DNA from: a virus
Strand: one strand, 5' to 3'
DNA length: 31,178 bases
IMG/VR virus record: IMGVR_UViG_3300035184_000889
Span: 1-31,178 of that record
A program made the translations under genes and the position numbers. Below the pieces are notes generated by a model. The model saw nothing but the letters and a program-made list of their open reading frames with translations. It searched no databases and was not told where the DNA came from. Below, one piece after another: positions 8,603 through 31,178 of the stretch (positions are counted from its first letter, which is position 1; every line of letters begins with the position of its first letter).

Positions 8603-9231
8603 TTTATGATAAGAAAAAAGGTTCACTACTTAATTATATCCAGTTGCCACTGCATGTGGTAACATCCGACGGAACTTACCTTGGGGTTGGATATGACGCT
8701 GATAGACCAAAGTATATGCTATCTCACGTTAGGGTCGTAACATACGATGTGCGTGATCTTGTGTTCTCTAAAATCAGTAAGAACGCAATAGTTAACCATA
8801 CTACTCCTTTAATAGAGATCAAGGATAACACTATTGGCTATGATTATAAAATTACGGAAACTGAAATAAAATATGGTTATATCACAGTTGCATCACAACG
8901 TGTCGATATCACAAAAAATGTTATATCAAAGGATTCTGCCGCTCGTATTTTAGATAAACAATTGCGTAATATAGGAAATGTACTTGAACAGTTTGTTAAA
9001 CAGCCACTTTCACAAAGTCAGTTCGATGCACTGCTTCATCATTTTTACTTTGTTGGGGTTGATAAGATACAATCTAGTTCAATCATACAATTGATAAACG
9101 TTAAACGCTGGTATGATATCACTGATGAAATTCAAAGTGGCATAAAACGAAATAACGGCAAAGTGGATGAACACCTCGCCGCTATTAAAATTAGGACTTC
9201 TAAAATGTGGAGTTACGTACCTGGCTTTTAA
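8599..9231 (+). CDS. Degenerate GH24 lysozyme-like protein
   Basis: A 210-aa protein read from the ATG that overlaps the spike stop by four bases (ATGA). The C-terminal lobe is clearly GH24-like: [37 protein letters not shown] (lysozymes have LTQNQFDAL..F.FNVG) and a closing [21 protein letters not shown]. The catalytic half appears lost: the position of the catalytic Glu reads LIEIKDN (Asp76 or none), no Asp stands in the usual place, and the TIGYGH motif reads KYGYIT. Residues 1-70 are beta-like and unassigned. It is probably a structural or peptidoglycan-binding relic rather than an enzyme. It ends tail-to-tail with clpP, the two stops overlapping. Confidence 0.55.
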
Positions 9232-9854
9232 GTTGGACGCTCAGAAATCATTAAGTCTGCTAGACCATACTCAACTGCATCACTCGCAGACATGAATGTA
9301 TCAAACTTCATTGTAACTTCTAACTCTTCGAATGTTTTGCCCTTTGAGTTGTGCTGTACGTATAATTCTGTTAAGCGTTTGTTAATATTCTTAGACTCTT
9401 CAAAATGACGGAGGTTATCTTCCATTTCGAGTTCTTGTACGTATACAGAACCACCAGTACCGCGAGTACCACTTGATACACGATGGACCATCGTGCGAGA
9501 GTTAGGTAGAACATAACGCTTGCCTGTCGCACCAGCTTGTGCTAGAAATGATCCCATTGAACATGCTTGTCCGATAACAGTAGTGCATACATCAGGTTTG
9601 ATGAATTGCATGGTATCATAGATAGCAAGACCTGATGTTACAGCCCCACCTGGTGAGTTGATATAAAAGTGAATATCTTTATCTGGGTTTTCTGCTTCTA
9701 GAAATAGTAATTGTGCGCAAAGCAAGTCTGCTTGGTAGTCATTAACTTCACCAGTTAGAAAAATCACACGCTCTTTCAACAGTCGTGAAAAGATATCGTA
9801 GCTGCGTTCGCCGTTAGCTGATTGGTCTACAACCATTGGTACTAGATTTGGCAT
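9228..9854 (-). CDS. clpP: ClpP-like ATP-dependent protease proteolytic subunit
   Basis: A 208-aa serine peptidase of the ClpP family, whose barrel degrades proteins fed by a Clp ATPase. It tracks bacterial ClpP closely: [67 protein letters not shown] with Ser99, RTMVHRV with His124, and [17 protein letters not shown] with Asp185, so the triad is intact. Odd: His-to-Asp spacing is 61 residues against 49 in E. coli ClpP, a net insertion of about 12 residues in the handle-helix region, and the usual MIHQP is MVHRV. No phage Clp ATPase lies nearby, so it may use or interfere with the host ClpX/ClpA. Its AAGGA site lies in the end of the upstream gene, implying coupling. Confidence 0.92.
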
Positions 9855-10164: not shown

Positions 10165-10854
10165 CTATTTTAGTTTTGGCACAATAAAATCTCTGATCAT
10201 TTCTTCGTTGGTATTGTCATTGAAGTGTACATGATCACACAGTATGTTTTCTTTTCCGTATTTGTCTACATAATAACTATGTGCATTGGGATGGCCTATG
10301 AATTTCACATCTGTATCTATGTGATTGCTAAAGTCGAACTGTTCTTGCCATGTAATTACTTTTATTCCTAATAAATTGCAAAGCTTGATAGCTTGTTTGC
10401 AATCTAATATGCCCCAAAACTCAAATGCATTTTCATTGTATGCTAGTTGCTCTTGCACACGTTGCCACACATCAAAATCTCGCTTTGTTGCGAACTTAGT
10501 ATGGTCTATTGGCTGAGTTATAGCTCTTACATACTCCCAAATAGACGCACTATCTTTGTACACGTTGTCAGTTACATCAGACAAATCATATTCTTGCGAT
10601 TTCATGTTAAGCATTGAACGGTTGTTAACAAGTTCCATTAAAATACAATCAACATCATGTGTCTCTTTTAGATATACTATCTTATCAAGATATAATTCAG
10701 TTCCCTTACCAGAACATGCACTGTTATAAACCTGAATATCCGTTGTATATTTTTCTATCCAAGTCTCAAATGGCAATGCCAGATCATTTAATCCTGTAAC
10801 TTTATTGTGATGACAGCCAACTGAAAAGCTTGAACCGATAATACCTAGTTTCAT
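10165..10854 (-). CDS. SGNH/GDSL-hydrolase-like protein
   Basis: A 229-aa protein with the SGNH layout. The first strand and nucleophile elbow is LGIIGSSFSVG (Ser9 in a GSS replacing GDS). NSACSGKGTE has Gly49/Gly51 at the oxyanion block, and ILMELVNNRS (Asn77/78) stands in the third-block position. CDHVHFND near the C-terminus supplies Asp207 and His210 of the usual DxxH. Such proteins are esterases or acyl/acetyl hydrolases acting on carbohydrates or lipids; the substrate here cannot be read. There is no signal peptide or membrane segment. It has no Shine-Dalgarno, and a late-promoter-like CATAAATA on its strand (10867-10860) ends five bases before the ATG. The start is fixed because the first strand begins at residue 2. 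Confidence 0.6.
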   Translation of the reverse strand: MKLGIIGSSFSVGCHHNKVTGLNDLALPFETWIEKYTTDIQVYNSACSGKGTELYLDKIVYLKETHDVDCILMELVNNRSMLNMKSQEYDLSDVTDNVYKDSASIWEYVRAITQPIDHTKFATKRDFDVWQRVQEQLAYNENAFEFWGILDCKQAIKLCNLLGIKVITWQEQFDFSNHIDTDVKFIGHPNAHSYYVDKYGKENILCDHVHFNDNTNEEMIRDFIVPKLK

Positions 10855-24527: not shown

Positions 24528-24535
24528 GATAAATA
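24528..24535 (+). promoter_or_regulatory. T4-type late promoter
   Basis: GATAAATA lies in the 60-base gap after the giant wedge gene, 30 bases before the next start. Unlike the two other late promoters it lacks GTTCGTA 18 bases upstream. Confidence 0.65.
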
Positions 24536-24565: not shown

Positions 24566-25228
24566 ATGTTTAACGAGAATATTGAATCACAAATCATCGG
24601 CACCCTTAAAATCTTTGATAAAGATAGTGGCGAAGTACTTGTGCAAAAGAGAAATGCTATTCACCCCGGCAACATGGCCTATGTACTTGCGAGTGCGTTA
24701 GCTGGAAAGCCTGTATCGGTAAACGCGAACGGTAGCTCTCCATACATTGGATGGATGGCGTTTGGTAACGGCGGTAGTAACTCTACCACAACACTATCAT
24801 ATCGATCACCTCGAGTTTTTAGTGTATATGATAATCTACCAATTACATCTAGTAATTCGAGACTTTATGCTAAAACGTACCAACAACGAACAACAAACAC
24901 TGTCTATTACCCAGGCGAAGACATGGGAGACAGTGAAATTGTTCCAGATTTCACCTCTAAAATAAAATTTAGTGTAGAAATAGATAAGACTCAGTATGCA
25001 GCTATGAACAGTGCAGCAATTCCAGAGAATGATTCTCTTGTCGCACCGGTATTTACAATTGATGAAATCGGACTATTGTCCGGAAATCTACTTGCGGATA
25101 CTAATGATTGGTCTGATCTTGATGAAGACAAAACGTTGATGCTTACGCATGTAACATTTCATCCTGTGTTAATATCAGCAAACAGAACTATTGTAATTGA
25201 TTATACAGTTACGATACAAATAAACTAA
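24566..25228 (+). CDS. Virion structural protein (baseplate or fibre associated)
   Basis: A 220-aa protein behind its own late promoter with AGAAGAGAGA five bases before ATG. I recognise no named family with confidence. The sequence is beta-rich: GTLKIFDKDSGEVLVQKRNA, an IGWMAFGNGGS turn, then VFTIDEIGLLSG, and a closing LMLTHVTFHPVLISANRTIV followed by a final strand. The combination of a 'FGNGG' turn, 'DEIGL' and 'LTHV.FHPV..S.NR' is familiar from phage tail and baseplate accessory proteins. It stands where T4 has gp8, but no similarity to gp8 was seen. There is no membrane segment or signal peptide. It is probably a host-distal tail component because it lies between the wedge and fibre genes. 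Confidence 0.55.
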   Translation: MFNENIESQIIGTLKIFDKDSGEVLVQKRNAIHPGNMAYVLASALAGKPVSVNANGSSPYIGWMAFGNGGSNSTTTLSYRSPRVFSVYDNLPITSSNSRLYAKTYQQRTTNTVYYPGEDMGDSEIVPDFTSKIKFSVEIDKTQYAAMNSAAIPENDSLVAPVFTIDEIGLLSGNLLADTNDWSDLDEDKTLMLTHVTFHPVLISANRTIVIDYTVTIQIN

Positions 25229-25324: not shown

Positions 25325-26242
25325 ATGGCTGTAGGAGATATCATTAACGCAAGCGATCCGTTTGCAAGCCTACGTAGCAAGATGGACACCATTCTAAACG
25401 GAACGGGTGTCGCAGGAGGTTACAACCAAGGTCACACAATTGCTGCAAACCCAAGTACAGGTGATACAATCGATGATGCGTATTTCGATTCACTGTTCTC
25501 GGCGGCAGCAAAGATTTCAAATTATTATAACATTACTAACCCATTCACGGCAGTAAACGCTGGTACGGTTATTGCATGGGCAGATTATGCAAGTGTTGCG
25601 GCAACATTTGAATCCGACATTAATACACGGTTTATCGCACCATGGAGTTATTCTTCAGGTTGGGATACAACAACTGCAACAGAAACAACACAAACTGTTG
25701 CCAACTGGAACGGTACACGAGATACAGTAACGAAAGTTGCGTTCGGTTCAGTTGCAAATATGGATGCATGGTTCGCTGCAGGCGGCGAATTACGGGTATC
25801 TATGTCACACAGTGACACATCACAAAATCAACAAGGTACTTCATGGGAACAGCTATGTGCAGAAGTAGGCACATATCGTATCTCATTACGTGCGACAGAC
25901 TCAACTAACATTGATACGTCAACACGTAAGAAGTATGATGACTTGACCACATCAAACGCATATATCAAACGTGAATATGCAAATGATGGGGATTATTCAA
26001 GTAACTATGCAGATATTTCAGCATACAAATCAGGGTCTGACATTTTTGTTACCACACGTCTTATAGACGCACACGTAGCACGTACAGGTTCTGGTTCTGG
26101 TTATGGTGGCGCATGGTCTTGGACTGGCGCAGATACAGTGCCAGGTACTTCAACTGTGAACGTTTCTTCATTGAAACTTTCAAATGCATCAGGTTCAGTT
26201 ACTTTAACTAACCCGACATACACCGTTACTAACACATTATAA
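25325..26242 (+). CDS. Tail/fibre-type structural protein, paralogue 1
   Basis: A 305-aa protein with AGGAG nine bases before ATG. The N-terminal third holds repeated short motifs of the type G.I..AS/A..F..L....(I) (GDIINASDPFASLRSKMDTI; GDTIDDAYFDSLFSAAAKIS) and a GYNQ turn. The middle carries FGSVANMDAWFAAGGELRVS (AGGELR at residues 152-157) followed by GTSWEQLCAEVGTYRISL, and the C-terminus is Ser/Thr/Gly-rich (SGSGYGGAWSWTGADTVPG). The next gene shows the same order, so the two are paralogues. Such AGGE-type modules occur in phage tail and distal-fibre proteins. A role in receptor contact is inferred from position after the wedge genes and from composition. Confidence 0.6.
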   Translation: MAVGDIINASDPFASLRSKMDTILNGTGVAGGYNQGHTIAANPSTGDTIDDAYFDSLFSAAAKISNYYNITNPFTAVNAGTVIAWADYASVAATFESDINTRFIAPWSYSSGWDTTTATETTQTVANWNGTRDTVTKVAFGSVANMDAWFAAGGELRVSMSHSDTSQNQQGTSWEQLCAEVGTYRISLRATDSTNIDTSTRKKYDDLTTSNAYIKREYANDGDYSSNYADISAYKSGSDIFVTTRLIDAHVARTGSGSGYGGAWSWTGADTVPGTSTVNVSSLKLSNASGSVTLTNPTYTVTNTL

Positions 26243-26263: not shown

Positions 26264-27238
26264 ATGGCACCGCAAAGTTACTTCTTGGGAGGAAAAATCA
26301 GAGCATCTGATTTCAATGGTTTCGCTAATGATATTAACGAAATTGTTGGATTAGGGGCAGGTGATTCTGGTTATGGACAATCTCAACTATTAGTAACTCT
26401 TGTGACTGCTGGTTCTAAAGTGCGGGCATCAAATTGGAATGAACTTTTAAATTCAGTGACATTTGGAGCGCAACACCAAGGGACAACTATTTCAATACCA
26501 GCGGACACTAGTGATCCACTGTTTCCAGCACCGGGTAGAATAATTTCAATTATCCCAGTACTAGAAGCAGATATTGCTAGTGTCCGTGCTAACAAATTAG
26601 ATTATGATATCTCATTGATGGCAATTGAAACAAATAAAATATCTTCATCTAAGACATTTGTAGATCCTACGAGTACAGGTAATCATTGGGATAATACAAA
26701 TAACCCACAAACATACGAATTCAAAACAACGTTTGTTGACACAGATGCGATGCGTAACTTCTTCAATGCAGGCGGCGAAGTTCGTATATCCACAGAGTTG
26801 ACTGGATATGATGTCTCGCATGTGCAAAGTGATTCATGGGCAGATTTACTTACTGACATTGCAACAGTTAAGCTATCAAATAACTTAACTGAGAGTTCAG
26901 CAGGCGTTGGTACTCCTGGTACTGGTTTCACCTCAATGACAAGCACATACGCACTTGTATATACTAAAGGCGGGACTGGAGATTATGTACAGAACCAACT
27001 TAACGTATACGCAAAAACAAATGGTTCAGCTATTGATATCAAAGTAGAGTATAATGATGGTCACCAATCAGACACCGGTTCTTGGTCAAATGACGGCGGC
27101 GGCACTTGGACTGGAACCGATTATACTGAAGGTACACTTACAGTAACTATTGATCAACAACGTGCAGATGACAGTGATGTATCTGGATTGGGTGTTGTCA
27201 CTCCTACGCCGACTTATTCTCATATTTCCGAACTTTAA
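26264..27238 (+). CDS. Tail/fibre-type structural protein, paralogue 2
   Basis: A 324-aa protein starting 21 bases after paralogue 1 with an AAGGCG site. It repeats the same plan: N-terminal GGKIRASDFNGFANDINEIV and GSKVRASNWNELLNSVTFG around a GYGQ turn, then FVDTDAMRNFFNAGGEVRIS (AGGEVR at 169-174), DSWADLLTDIATVKLS, and a Gly/Ser/Trp-rich C-terminal part (DTGSWSNDGGGTWTGTDY). The nine bases AAGGCGAAT occur both just before this gene (26250-26258) and in the leader of paralogue 1 (25272-25280), consistent with duplication of the whole unit. Probably a distal tail or fibre component. It is the last gene before the sigma-70 promoter. Confidence 0.6.
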   Translation: MAPQSYFLGGKIRASDFNGFANDINEIVGLGAGDSGYGQSQLLVTLVTAGSKVRASNWNELLNSVTFGAQHQGTTISIPADTSDPLFPAPGRIISIIPVLEADIASVRANKLDYDISLMAIETNKISSSKTFVDPTSTGNHWDNTNNPQTYEFKTTFVDTDAMRNFFNAGGEVRISTELTGYDVSHVQSDSWADLLTDIATVKLSNNLTESSAGVGTPGTGFTSMTSTYALVYTKGGTGDYVQNQLNVYAKTNGSAIDIKVEYNDGHQSDTGSWSNDGGGTWTGTDYTEGTLTVTIDQQRADDSDVSGLGVVTPTPTYSHISEL

Positions 27239-27241
27239 TAC

Positions 27242-27270
27242 TTGACATTTGGCTAATATTTCTATATAAT
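27242..27270 (+). promoter_or_regulatory. Consensus sigma-70 promoter for the glycosyltransferase operon
   Basis: TTGACA (27242-27247), 17 bases, TATAAT (27265-27270): a perfect consensus that begins three bases after the stop of the last fibre-type gene. AGGAG at 27282-27286 serves the first gene. No late -10 box is present here. Confidence 0.9.
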
Positions 27271-27293
27271 AGAACAATATTAGGAGAGTAACC

Positions 27294-27674
27294 ATGTCAA
27301 ACGAAACCATCAATCCGTCTAGCGATGACCAAGCACGTCTTGCCAAAGCCTTAGACTTTTCAAACACAATGCAAACATTTAACTTGTCTAAGAATAATCT
27401 TAAAGTCAAGACGCAAAACCTATTGTCTTATAGCATCAACGGTGGTACATTTAGTGTATCACAGGAACTGATTGCATTTGTCAATATGGCAGTTGTTGCA
27501 GAAAAGACTAATCTAATTCTGTTAGATAAGAACGATATTCCAATTCAAATCGGTGATACTACAAAGTTCTTGGAAGATATTTCAAGTCTGTACTTTGAAG
27601 TGATCAACGAGTATTACAATGACTATCAGAAATTACGTAGTTCACGTAAGATTGAAAAAGTGTTGGAGATTTAA
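27294..27674 (+). CDS. Conserved-looking hypothetical, first gene of the sugar operon
   Basis: A 126-aa soluble protein that I cannot name. It begins with a polar segment (NPSSDDQARLAKALDFSNTM), continues with NLLSYSINGGTFSVSQELIA (residues about 43-62) and a central FVNMAVVAEKTNLILLDKND strand-turn, and ends in a charged helix (YYNDYQKLRSSRKIEKVLEI). It has no metal-binding, membrane or signal features. It is the first gene after the sigma-70 promoter, with AGGAG seven bases from ATG, and its stop overlaps the start of the first glycosyltransferase (TAATG). It is therefore expected to be made with the glycosyltransferases; function unknown. Confidence 0.75.
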   Translation: MSNETINPSSDDQARLAKALDFSNTMQTFNLSKNNLKVKTQNLLSYSINGGTFSVSQELIAFVNMAVVAEKTNLILLDKNDIPIQIGDTTKFLEDISSLYFEVINEYYNDYQKLRSSRKIEKVLEI

Positions 27675-28543
27675 TGAAACGCGGCATTATTATTTTTGCA
27701 AGAAATAATGGTTACGTTGATTATGTTAAGATTGCTTGTGCGAGTGCAGGCTATGCCAGAAAGCATCTTAGTGGATTTAACGAGATATGTCTTATCACAG
27801 ACACATCATCACATGATGATAACCCAAAGTTAATTGAACAATATTTCGATAGAACTATTATTTCAGACAACTTTCAACCCGAGAATACAAGATTGTTCAA
27901 AGATACTGCGAACAGTCCTGAGTATGCGTCCTTTAAAAATATGGGACGCAGTGAAGTCTATGACCTTTCGCCGTATGACGAGACATTAGTTATTGATTGT
28001 GATTACTTTATCATGAGTGATACATTGGATCAAGTGTGGGGAAGCGAAAATGACTTTATGATAAATTATCAATATAGGGATATTGCTGGTAGGCATGGCG
28101 GTAATATTTCCTATATTGATGATTTTACTATTCCAATGTGTTGGGCTACCGTATTTTTCTTTAGAAGGAGCGAGTATGCAGAAAATCTATTCAATCTGAT
28201 TACACACATCAAATTTAACTACAAGTACTACTATGCACTTTATAATTGTTCTGGTAACTTATTTAGAAACGATTTTGCATTTGCTATGGCATTGCATATT
28301 TTAAATGGCAATGTATCATTTAAAGCACCATCTCTTCCAATAGATTATCTTAATAACAGTTTTGATTTAGATGATATTTTTCGAGTGAATGCGGCGAATG
28401 ATATTATTATGTATTGTGCTAAAGCAGAAACCGTGGAAGAACATTTATTGTCTCGGTTTACTAATACAGACGTACATATTATGAATAAACGAGCAATTGG
28501 TAGACATGTCGATACGATGTTAGAAATGGGAGAAACTGTATGA
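27674..28543 (+). CDS. GT-A-type glycosyltransferase-like protein 1
   Basis: A 289-aa protein with a nucleotide-sugar transferase outline. There is an N-terminal strand KRGIIIFARNN, an alternating alpha/beta first half, and ETLVIDCDYFIM with a DxD-type metal site (Asp108-Cys109-Asp110). The second half is Tyr/Asn-rich and contains NLFRNDFAFAMALHILNG. A DxD at the end of a hydrophobic strand near residue 110 is typical of GT-A enzymes such as family 8. Donor and acceptor are unknown. It overlaps the upstream gene by one base and the next by four (ATGA). The next gene is a paralogue with the same plan, and both could modify virion or host surface glycans. Confidence 0.65.
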   Translation: MKRGIIIFARNNGYVDYVKIACASAGYARKHLSGFNEICLITDTSSHDDNPKLIEQYFDRTIISDNFQPENTRLFKDTANSPEYASFKNMGRSEVYDLSPYDETLVIDCDYFIMSDTLDQVWGSENDFMINYQYRDIAGRHGGNISYIDDFTIPMCWATVFFFRRSEYAENLFNLITHIKFNYKYYYALYNCSGNLFRNDFAFAMALHILNGNVSFKAPSLPIDYLNNSFDLDDIFRVNAANDIIMYCAKAETVEEHLLSRFTNTDVHIMNKRAIGRHVDTMLEMGETV

Positions 28544-29397
28544 GTAAAGGTTATATCGTAATTGCACAGAATAACAATGAGTATGATTACCTTGAAATGA
28601 CATACGCATTGGCATTAAGCTTGAAAGCGACACAAAAGGAAAACGCAATTTGTATTTGTGTAGATGATTATACCAAAAGCTTGATCCAAGATAAACATCG
28701 CAATGTATTTGATCATATCGTTGATATTCCTTGGAATGATGATTCTGGTAACGACAACTGGAAAATTCACAATAAGTGGAAATACATTCATATGTCTCCG
28801 TTTGATGAAACTATTATCTTAGATAGCGATATGGTGTTCACCCACAGTGTTGATCATTGGTGGGACTATCTAGGTACTAAAGATGTATGGTGTTGTACAA
28901 ACGTCAAGACATTTAGAGGCGAAGACGTGACAAGCGATTACTATCGTAAGAAGTTCACAGAACTAGAATTGCCAGATATCTATAGTAACTTTTCTTACTT
29001 TAAAAAGACTCAACCAGCATATGAGTTCTTCCGTATGATTGAACTTATTATGACGCACTGGAATGTATATTACGATAAGTTTCTTAAAGGTATTGGACAG
29101 AATTGGATGAGTGCTGATATGGCATATGCTCTTGCAATTAAACTACTTGACATTGAAGAGATTGTATGTGATTATGATATTAAGGACGTGCCCACATTTG
29201 TTCATATGAAATCACACATTCAGAATATTGACAAAACAAAGATCAATAATATTTGGACTAAAAGTATTTCAAGTGAACTTACAGATAACCTTGAGGTACG
29301 TATCGGAAACTTCATTCAAACTTTACCAGTGCATTATGTACAGAAAGAATGGATGACCGAAGAAAAGATTACAACTTATGAGAAAGCTGTCCTATGA
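28540..29397 (+). CDS. GT-A-type glycosyltransferase-like protein 2
   Basis: A 285-aa paralogue of the preceding protein. N-terminal SKGYIVIAQNNNEYDYLEMT, then HMSPFDETIILDSDMVF with a classical DxD (Asp95-Ser96-Asp97). A Trp/Tyr-rich second half has a conserved MSADMAYALAIKLL stretch that corresponds to the NDFAFAMALHIL stretch of paralogue 1. A nucleotide-sugar transferase role is inferred from the DxD and the fold pattern. There is no signal peptide or membrane anchor, so it should act in the cytoplasm. Both junctions are four-base ATGA overlaps, giving tight translational coupling. Confidence 0.7.
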   Translation: MSKGYIVIAQNNNEYDYLEMTYALALSLKATQKENAICICVDDYTKSLIQDKHRNVFDHIVDIPWNDDSGNDNWKIHNKWKYIHMSPFDETIILDSDMVFTHSVDHWWDYLGTKDVWCCTNVKTFRGEDVTSDYYRKKFTELELPDIYSNFSYFKKTQPAYEFFRMIELIMTHWNVYYDKFLKGIGQNWMSADMAYALAIKLLDIEEIVCDYDIKDVPTFVHMKSHIQNIDKTKINNIWTKSISSELTDNLEVRIGNFIQTLPVHYVQKEWMTEEKITTYEKAVL

Positions 29398-29969
29398 TTA
29401 GTAGCACGTTAGAAACAACTCGTACCGCTAGATATGTTTATTTTGATGATACCGGCATGATCACTAGTATTAGTGGACGAACAAATGATACAGATGATAT
29501 GTATGCCAATTTTGAGTTAGATGTTATTTTACCATTCATTGATGGTTCTTTTAAGTTTTCAGACTATGCAGTTGTTCGCAGTAGCAATCCGCTAGTGTAT
29601 GACATTGTAAAACGTAAAGTCAGTATTAAACAGCGAAGTTCTGAAAGTCAAATAACTAAAGTAACTAAGCTTGACGGAGCTGACATTAATATTGAAATGA
29701 CAGATAATACAATTGAGATTAGTGCCAGTGCAGGATTGGTTGCACGATCAAATGTAAATAAGAATCAAACAGTTATCGTAGCTGGAGCAGACGTTCACCC
29801 ATTCTTTATTACACACAAAGATCGACCAGAGTTCTTGATTAGTACGCAACTGATTAAGTTTAGTGACTTGTTAAGTGGTGAAAAAGTAGTGGTTAACTAC
29901 GACTATAAATACAGTATAAGTGTTTACACCCGTAAGTACTTTGACAGTTATTCTTTAAGGAGATCATAG
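29394..29969 (+). CDS. Beta-rich hypothetical protein within the sugar operon
   Basis: A 191-aa protein that I do not recognise. It begins with TARYVYFDDTGMITSISGR (residues about 10-28) and is rich in alternating strand-like segments (VYDIVKRKVSIKQRSSESQI, GADINIEMTDNTIEISA, NKNQTVIVAGADVHPFFI). There are no cysteines, membrane segments or obvious catalytic motif. The composition suggests a virion or binding protein rather than an enzyme. Being locked between glycosyltransferases by a four-base overlap on one side and a two-base gap on the other, it may be their acceptor or a sugar-decorated structural part; that is speculation. Confidence 0.65.
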   Translation: MISSTLETTRTARYVYFDDTGMITSISGRTNDTDDMYANFELDVILPFIDGSFKFSDYAVVRSSNPLVYDIVKRKVSIKQRSSESQITKVTKLDGADINIEMTDNTIEISASAGLVARSNVNKNQTVIVAGADVHPFFITHKDRPEFLISTQLIKFSDLLSGEKVVVNYDYKYSISVYTRKYFDSYSLRRS

Positions 29970-29971
29970 TA

Positions 29972-30946
29972 ATGAAATTAGAAATCGGCGACCTAGATAT
30001 TTTCTATCTAAGTTATGACGAACCAAACAAAGAAAAGCATTGGGCAGATATTCTACAAAAATTTCCGTTTGCAAAACGAGTAGATGGAGTTAAAGGTTTT
30101 GATAATGCACATAAAGAATGTGCTAGACAAAGTGATACTGACCGCTTTATTACAATCGACGGTGATAACATCGTTGATGAAAAATTCTTTGATATTGAGT
30201 TAACATTCCCAGACGGAACAGATTTGACTAACTCTGTTATCTCATGGAGCGCAAAGAATGTGGTTAACGGATTGGTATATGGTAACGGTGGTATTAAGTG
30301 TTGGCCTGTACAACTTGTATTAGATATGCGCACACATGAAAATGCAGAAGATGAAACAAAAAAGGTTGACTTCTGTTGGGATTTGAACTATATTCAAATG
30401 AACAATGTATACTCGTTAGTGTACAACGCAGGTTCGCCGTTTCAAGCATTTCGTGCTGGGTATCGTGAAGGTGCAAAGATGTCACTTGATGAAGGTAAGA
30501 AAGTACCAGTAGAAGATTTTAAGAAGCGTATCTGGCCTAAGAACTATGAGCGTTTGATTACTTGGTGTAACATCGGAGCAGATGTTGAGAATGGTATCTG
30601 GGCTTTATTTGGCGCACGTTTAGGCTGTTATGATATGAACTTGAATGACGATTTCATACTAGAAAACATTTCAAGCTATGACTGGTTTAAAGAGTATTTC
30701 GACAATGAAGTATTTCCTAAGTTCTCAGGTGGCGAAATGAAATGTGAAGCTACTAAAATAACATGGGATTATGAGAAATTGTTTGATGAATGTCTACGTG
30801 TTGGCGACATCTTAGTTGATAAGATTGGTATGGAACTATGTGATCCAACACCAGAACTAGGTGCGTTCTTCAAACGAGTATATACAAATCCACCACGTGT
30901 TAAGAATCCATTAGCAACTGAGAAACAAACTGGCTGGGATAAGTAA
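29972..30946 (+). CDS. Glycosyltransferase-like protein 3 (DGD type)
   Basis: A 324-aa protein that resembles a family common in marine T4-like phages. It begins with LDIFYLSYDEPNKEKHWADI, then AKRVDGVKGFDNAHKECA and RFITIDGDNIVD, with a DxD-like site Asp63-Gly64-Asp65 at a strand end, as in GT-A transferases. The middle has ISWSAKNVVNGLVYGNGGIK, a glycine-rich acceptor-loop-like stretch, and a Trp-rich region follows. Not a paralogue of the two upstream transferases by eye. AAGGAG precedes the ATG, and the next gene starts within its stop (TAATG). Exact donor and acceptor are unknown. Confidence 0.62.
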   Translation: MKLEIGDLDIFYLSYDEPNKEKHWADILQKFPFAKRVDGVKGFDNAHKECARQSDTDRFITIDGDNIVDEKFFDIELTFPDGTDLTNSVISWSAKNVVNGLVYGNGGIKCWPVQLVLDMRTHENAEDETKKVDFCWDLNYIQMNNVYSLVYNAGSPFQAFRAGYREGAKMSLDEGKKVPVEDFKKRIWPKNYERLITWCNIGADVENGIWALFGARLGCYDMNLNDDFILENISSYDWFKEYFDNEVFPKFSGGEMKCEATKITWDYEKLFDECLRVGDILVDKIGMELCDPTPELGAFFKRVYTNPPRVKNPLATEKQTGWDK

Positions 30947-31178
30947 TGTCAAACTACGATGATGATGCACGTGCAACACGTAAAAAACTAAACTCATTAT
31001 CACCTTCTATGTGTATGGCTAAGTGGCTGCAAGTAAGTTTGCATTTACCACAAGGTCGTACACATAGTTGTTATCACCCACCCACGCATCCTATTCCTCT
31101 ATCAGAACTTAAAGCGAACCCAAATGCTTTACATAATACAAAGTTCAAGCTAGAAGAACGTAAACAAATGAAGAACGG
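30946..31178 (+). CDS. Radical-SAM-like (twitch domain) protein, 5' end only
   Basis: Seventy-seven codons are visible before the window ends. Residues 18-64 read as LSPSMCMAKWLQVSLHLPQG (with Cys23), then THSCYHPPTHPIPL with Cys42, and SELKANPNALHNTKFK. This matches my memory of the N-terminus of radical-SAM/twitch proteins in marine T4-like phages, in which the remaining cluster cysteines lie further downstream. The rest of the cluster is outside the window, so this is resemblance only. Such enzymes use S-adenosylmethionine and an iron-sulfur cluster for radical chemistry; a sugar or peptide substrate would fit the neighbours. The start overlaps the upstream stop by one base. Confidence 0.55.
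   Translation, partial: MSNYDDDARATRKKLNSLSPSMCMAKWLQVSLHLPQGRTHSCYHPPTHPIPLSELKANPNALHNTKFKLEERKQMKN

Follow-up and report, generated by a model that had tools for sequence, protein, structure and literature searches.

What is an operon of glycosyltransferase genes doing directly behind the fibre genes of a T4-like phage? The question arises from the IMG/VR record IMGVR_UViG_3300035184_000889, which was analysed whole (31,178 bases, hereafter the window) and comes from an uncultured aquatic virus of bacteria. The window covers the baseplate and fibre part of the phage, including a late sigma factor, baseplate proteins and a giant virion protein, and it ends in six genes that a preliminary description of the sequence had read as a sugar-modification system for virion fibres or host surface glycans. 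Our analysis showed that the gene set is kept as a unit among relatives and has a conserved promoter of its own. We put at about even the chance that these genes serve as a conserved modification cassette linked to the fibre, whose protein they would decorate inside the cell.

Gene order of the cassette

The cassette lies on the + strand and starts with a sigma-70 promoter (TTGACA-N17-TATAAT, 27242..27270, 12/12). The fibre stop codon TAA occupies 27236-27238; TTGACA starts at 27242, and a 17-nt spacer separates it from TATAAT at 27265-27270. Six genes follow: fam5 (27294..27674), the glycosyltransferases GTc with the motif DCD (27674..28543) and GTd with DSD (28540..29397), fam6 (29394..29969), the glycosyltransferase fam3 with DGD (29972..30946), and the N-terminus of a twitch radical S-adenosylmethionine (radical-SAM) protein that is cut by the contig end (30946..31178). 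They meet at TAATG (27672-27676), ATGA (28540-28543), ATGA (29394-29397), a 2-base gap (29970-29971) and TAATG (30944-30948). Promoter placement and joints are as the preliminary description gave them.

We searched the viral collection with several of these proteins. The DGD enzyme found at least 598 relatives and fam5 at least 563; 80 of each were read, with some contigs common to both samples. The order was syntenic in more than 150 loci fetched. Among loci from the DGD and transferase searches, fam5-GTc-GTd-fam6-fam3-radical-SAM was the commonest order (n = 56), and the variants consisted of DGD duplication, of GTd or fam6 missing or unrecognised, and of missing radical-SAM genes. In the fam5-based sample, GTc, GTd, fam6 and fam3 lay downstream in 68/80 loci, and nearly all remaining loci end at contig ends. 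A scan with GTd found 17 loci, and their order agrees wherever contig ends do not intervene. The gene set had been proposed as a unit whose lack of conservation would tell against it, and sampling through DGD and through fam5 returned the same order. A random neighbourhood of hypervariable genes was rejected, because two separate queries led to one order and the exceptions are nearly all contig ends. No match to the cassette proteins tested was found by tblastn, at its sensitivity, in 50,697 records of cultured phages. Four loci (L096, L097, L100 and L107) form a natural comparison set: in each, DGD is present twice, a radical-SAM gene is not in view, and genes on the opposite strand come next. 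The contigs that carry L096 and L097 gave zero radical-SAM matches.

In 148/166 loci, the gene ahead of fam5 comes from one and the same fibre family. The predicted fold of fam5 (126 amino acids, model pLDDT 86) has as its best viral structural match in BFVD a protein which is itself uncharacterised (E 3e-6), and many DUF4376 proteins come next. In the consulted sections of two reports, the Alteromonas phages V22 and A5 have DUF4376 proteins that act as tail-fibre chaperones, with their genes placed behind that of the fibre (PMC7289586, PMC10579305). Fam5 resembles them in its DUF4376-like predicted fold and in its position directly behind the fibre gene, and it may be regarded as a putative fibre chaperone. 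However, Pfam gave no match to a DUF4376 domain at the sequence level, and the host recognition modules of V22 and A5, in those sections, are without modification enzymes. A prefoldin identity was rejected, since the PDB match was not significant and the DUF4376-like viral matches were better.

Promoters and expression timing

The preliminary description called the promoter perfect, and it is indeed the sole 12/12 site within 11.2-31.2 kb. A match of at least 11/12 stands ahead of fam5 in 38/109 distinct loci, compared with 0.3% of shuffles; none was found in relatives ahead of GTc, GTd or fam6. The hexamers are conserved in relatives and the spacer has diverged, and this conservation rules out a chance occurrence. 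The late sigma factor gene (1-756) is directly preceded by a second perfect sigma-70 promoter (784-812, − strand), which is an example of the early or middle type within the window itself.

The structural genes ahead of the cassette have another signature. The T4-type late promoter motif GATAAATA (24528..24535, + strand) precedes the structural gene at 24566, and it is kept there in L003, L006, L007, L011, L012 and L013. The count of this motif within the window alone is not above chance, so that only its position and conservation carry weight. Of the structural genes that precede the cassette, 30% have ATAAATA upstream (6.8% shuffled), and of the cassette genes 11% (5.4% shuffled). These motifs suggest that expression of the cassette would start at a host-type promoter and that of the fibres at the late type. 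We found no terminator in the window that would separate the fibre from the cassette, and therefore late read-through into the cassette, besides its own promoter, is likely too. In the relative L017, a terminator-like sequence lies between the two.

Enzymes of the cassette and their possible targets

GTc and GTd had been taken for paralogues and the DGD enzyme for an unrelated one, in agreement with our comparisons: the pair shares 28% identity (E 1e-7) with a profile-profile probability of 99.8%, and the DGD enzyme reaches a probability of at most 4% with it. The idea that the DGD enzyme is a distant copy of the pair was dropped for want of profile support. The DxD motif is present in 61/61 GTc sequences and in nearly all of 61 GTd sequences. 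A broad profile of GTc and GTd matches glycogenin, a characterised GT8 member, over the N-terminal third to half with DxD included (E 5.6e-7), whereas the C-terminal half is unmatched; GTd also matches phrog_1903 (E 1.5e-6), and the pair profile gave two matches per contig in 14/14. Profile similarity together with DxD places both among GT8-like glycosyltransferases, for which retaining transfer from a nucleotide donor is predicted.

For fam3, no sequence match to a known glycosyltransferase family was found in Pfam, NCBIfam or PDB. Its predicted fold gave 16 PDB matches with E < 0.001, all of them glycosyltransferases, at a template modelling (TM) score of only about 0.3, and D[GA]D is kept in 61/61 sequences. 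It is probably a GT-A-like glycosyltransferase with DGD as its motif. A 1219-residue phage protein (G001:59363-63022, in loci L022/L023) appears by eye to consist of about seven degenerate DGD-type modules in tandem; most of them are without the DGD motif, and the last matches the DGD profile.

The sixth gene had been called radical-SAM-like. The fragment in the window matches NF033640 (41 bits, E 1e-10) and is too short for the curated cut-off of 170 bits. We followed the operon past 31178 in relatives, as the preliminary description had proposed, and found the gene full-length and a larger conserved system behind it. The full-length homologues of L003 score 237-383 bits, which places them in the N_Twi_rSAM family. 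CxxxCxxC occurs in 222/222 radical-SAM open reading frames (ORFs), with at least four Cys ahead of the motif in about 90%, as is typical of the twitch class. For the collection scan, a two-sequence alignment was used as query because a mixed alignment was too diverse. In relatives, several NF033640-type genes stand in tandem after the cassette, and the islands extend over tens of kilobases, with as many as 13 radical-SAM genes identified with confidence. The curated cut-off is passed by 13 genes in G001 (107.8 kb), which has four weaker ones besides, and by 13 in G016 (246 kb); two contigs examined have none. In cultured phages, only weak homologues of the downstream radical-SAM genes were found, in Vibrio phages.

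The sugar-modification context of the preliminary description gains support from the rest of these islands, which hold epimerases, an aminotransferase, a UDP-sugar dehydrogenase, a C-methyltransferase, carbamoyltransferases, oxygenases and polysaccharide lyases; NDP-sugar epimerases scored above cut-off in 7/13 large contigs. Such genes would also suit enzymes that are made early to alter or cap the sugars of the host lipopolysaccharide or capsule, for superinfection exclusion or progeny release. This is the main rival to fibre decoration and a serious one, although we consider it the less likely. The sugar-nucleotide enzymes, carbamoyltransferases and C-methyltransferase of the islands speak for it, as does the host-type promoter, and the pelagimyophage authors read their own glycosyltransferases in this way (PMC7029224). 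In Chitinophagales, moreover, the radical-SAM family occurs in a polysaccharide-type cluster with glycosyltransferases, a sulfotransferase, DegT and a carbamoyltransferase. On the other side, the initiating sugar-phosphate transferase (PF02397) and the flippase (PF13440) were found in 0/13 large contigs, and therefore no complete lipid-linked polysaccharide assembly is visible in them, although the host might supply both. Hydropathy made no membrane segments evident in the cassette enzymes. The cassette is also fixed to the fibre gene, and its enzymes are more constant than the variable fibres, as expected for a fixed modification under a varying host range.

Thymidylate-synthase-family genes, present in 6/13 contigs, could recall a further role, since glycosylation of phage DNA against host nucleases is known for other phage glycosyltransferases (discussed in PMC12619734). 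However, this family is absent from the other 7/13 contigs, which are fragments, and is ordinary in phages. The fixed position behind fibres, the GT8-type enzymes and a bacterial copy that is accompanied by a fibre gene also speak against DNA as the target, which we regard as very improbable.

The remaining protein, fam6 (191 amino acids), which the preliminary description had called beta-rich, gave no match to families or PDB, and profiles gave no signal for a relationship with the fibre, fam5 or the DGD enzyme. It evolves at the fibre rate, with 38% identity where the DGD enzyme has 87%. It could be the substrate if the system tailors peptides in the manner of ribosomally synthesised and post-translationally modified peptides, in which radical-SAM enzymes would cross-link or epimerise a protein that the glycosyltransferases then glycosylate. 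The rate of fam6 is in accord with this suggestion, as are the Cys-rich N-terminal twitch region and CxxxCxxC of the 222 radical-SAM ORFs and a weak similarity of these proteins to peptide maturases. Among the fold matches of fam3 are the peptide glycosyltransferases SunS and ThuS, but many other glycosyltransferases are among them as well. NF033640 carries no assigned substrate, and no precursor peptide was identified, for which no dedicated search was made. Peptide tailoring is improbable, though less so than DNA glycosylation.

The fibre with and without the cassette

The fibre directly ahead of the cassette (fibre-type protein 2, 26264..27238, + strand) is a homologue of PA5oct gp360 (31% identity, profile E 1.5e-48) and a paralogue of fibre-type protein 1 (25325..26242, + strand), with which it forms one family by clustering. 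It is the probable acceptor or client of the cassette. PA5oct shares the structural synteny, including gp357, the homologue of the structural protein at 24566..25228 (+ strand; 35% identity; phrog_11259, E 1e-30); gp357 and gp360 both bear notes of electrospray ionisation tandem mass spectrometry (ESI-MS/MS) in their records, and the fibre homologue gp360 is in this way annotated as detected in the virion. The cassette is absent after gp360, and the DGD profile found no match in PA5oct in a search run without a positive control. Because PA5oct has the fibre without the cassette, the cassette is an added module.

A copy of fibre and cassette together was found in a Bdellovibrionota bin (G198). 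Behind genes that read as the housekeeping genes trmD, rimM and pheST, there follow a radical-SAM gene, a double DGD gene, a radical-SAM gene, the fibre (E 3.6e-58), fam5, GTc, GTd, a 163-residue protein, a DGD gene and a radical-SAM gene. No other tail genes stand beside them in the 25 kb read. The cassette part has a G+C content of 0.38 against 0.46, as for acquired DNA. DGD homologues occur in 16/241 Bdellovibrionota genomes, some as tandem doublets. In an Oligoflexia genome, a 635-residue ORF (L213 10387-12294, − strand) joins a radical-SAM/SPASM region, which scores just below Pfam cut-offs, to a DGD enzyme. In the Bdellovibrionota genomes of L125 (6034-18030) and L210-L213, arrays of twitch radical-SAM genes, at least seven per genome, stand next to housekeeping genes; one of the encoded proteins shares 47% identity with the first radical-SAM protein of the phage.

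Decoration of the fibre is favoured because the cassette adjoins the fibre gene, a bacterial copy holds both, the first gene is chaperone-like, the enzymes are soluble and more constant than the fibres, and lipid-carrier genes are lacking. The conserved DxD motifs, the virion annotation of the PA5oct fibre, the fusion of radical-SAM and DGD enzymes and the cassette's own promoter also speak for it. The chaperone-like protein and the three soluble glycosyltransferases would be made from the host-type (early) promoter. The glycosyltransferases would act in the cytoplasm, the radical-SAM enzymes encoded downstream may supply or alter an unusual sugar or tailor the attachment site, and the fibre protein produced later would then be decorated. 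In this scheme the timing, the fibre as acceptor and the sugar chemistry are inferred.

Several results weigh against fibre decoration. PA5oct makes its fibre without the cassette, and therefore the modification is not required for such fibres in general. The Chitinophagales cluster suits a surface glycan, and the fold match of fam3 has the low TM score given above. The joint copy was seen in 1/369 genomes of Bdellovibrionota, and its source is a genome bin in which misassembly is possible. In the preliminary description, fibres and host surface had been offered as alternative targets of a sugar-modification system. The system itself gains support from several features: the three glycosyltransferases fall into two unrelated kinds, the radical-SAM gene is real, the promoter is conserved and of host type as against the late-type motifs of the structural genes, and the gene set is kept as a unit. 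No result separates the two targets directly. An SGNH-like protein (10165-10854, − strand; GSS near the N-terminus and DHVH near the C-terminus) had been suggested as a partner of the cassette. It belongs to a different gene group on the opposite strand, with no link found, and it gave zero Pfam, PHROG or NCBIfam matches. Elsewhere in the window, a ClpP protease gene (9228-9854, − strand; NF001368, 252 bits against a cut-off of 249) lies inside the baseplate region, and Rfam and tRNA scans gave no matches.

Parts of this arrangement are already known. Pelagimyophages have fibre-region glycosyltransferases and radical-SAM cassettes in a host recognition cluster (HRC) (PMC7029224). The likeness is close: both are T4-like aquatic phages in which a single hypervariable region combines fibres with glycosyltransferases and radical-SAM cassettes. 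However, the HRC is described as non-syntenic and variable, whereas the present core order is invariant and has its own promoter, and the baseplate gp6 of the window has its closest relatives (about 34%) in jumbo phages of the RaK2/PA5oct type. The HRC sits between VrlC and the neck gene gp14, two markers that lie outside the window. TARA_ERS488813_N000010, a 183-kb T4-like genome, likewise has many radical-SAM genes in one marine genome (12, discussed under Fe-S cluster metabolism), but the part of the account consulted contains neither a glycosyltransferase cassette nor a fibre link (PMC5332604).

Moraphages, which are aquatic jumbo phages, have putative glycosyltransferases as core genes, in four orthogroups (PMC12619734). 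Their likeness to the cassette is one of enzyme description and not of sequence comparison with GTc, GTd and fam3; the word "radical" does not occur in that text, and the clade is defined by MCP/TerL/PolB phylogeny, with markers outside the window. Glycosylated virion proteins of mycobacteriophages, cited there, offer a precedent for how such a system works. In that citation, the capsid and tail tube and not the fibres are modified, and radical-SAM is unmentioned. As far as our searches of the literature went, it is new that the core order is invariant and has this promoter, and so are the DGD family, the site empty of the cassette, the bacterial fibre-plus-cassette unit and the fusion.

The cassette is a widespread aquatic-phage enzyme set, since parts of it occur in about 600 or more virus contigs and in no searched cultured phage. 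More tentatively, fibre and cassette may form one transferable unit that is widespread in uncultured large aquatic phages and was taken up once by a Bdellovibrionota bacterium. In such a unit, the fibre would travel with its own chaperone-like protein and with the glycosyltransferases and radical-SAM enzymes by which a non-standard glycan is built on it. The natural fusion of radical-SAM and DGD enzymes pairs the twitch radical-SAM family with a glycosyltransferase and hence offers a handle on the substrates of that family. The fixed position behind the fibre, the early-type promoter and the joint bacterial copy lead to a testable question, namely whether phage fibres may bear unusual enzymatic glycans.

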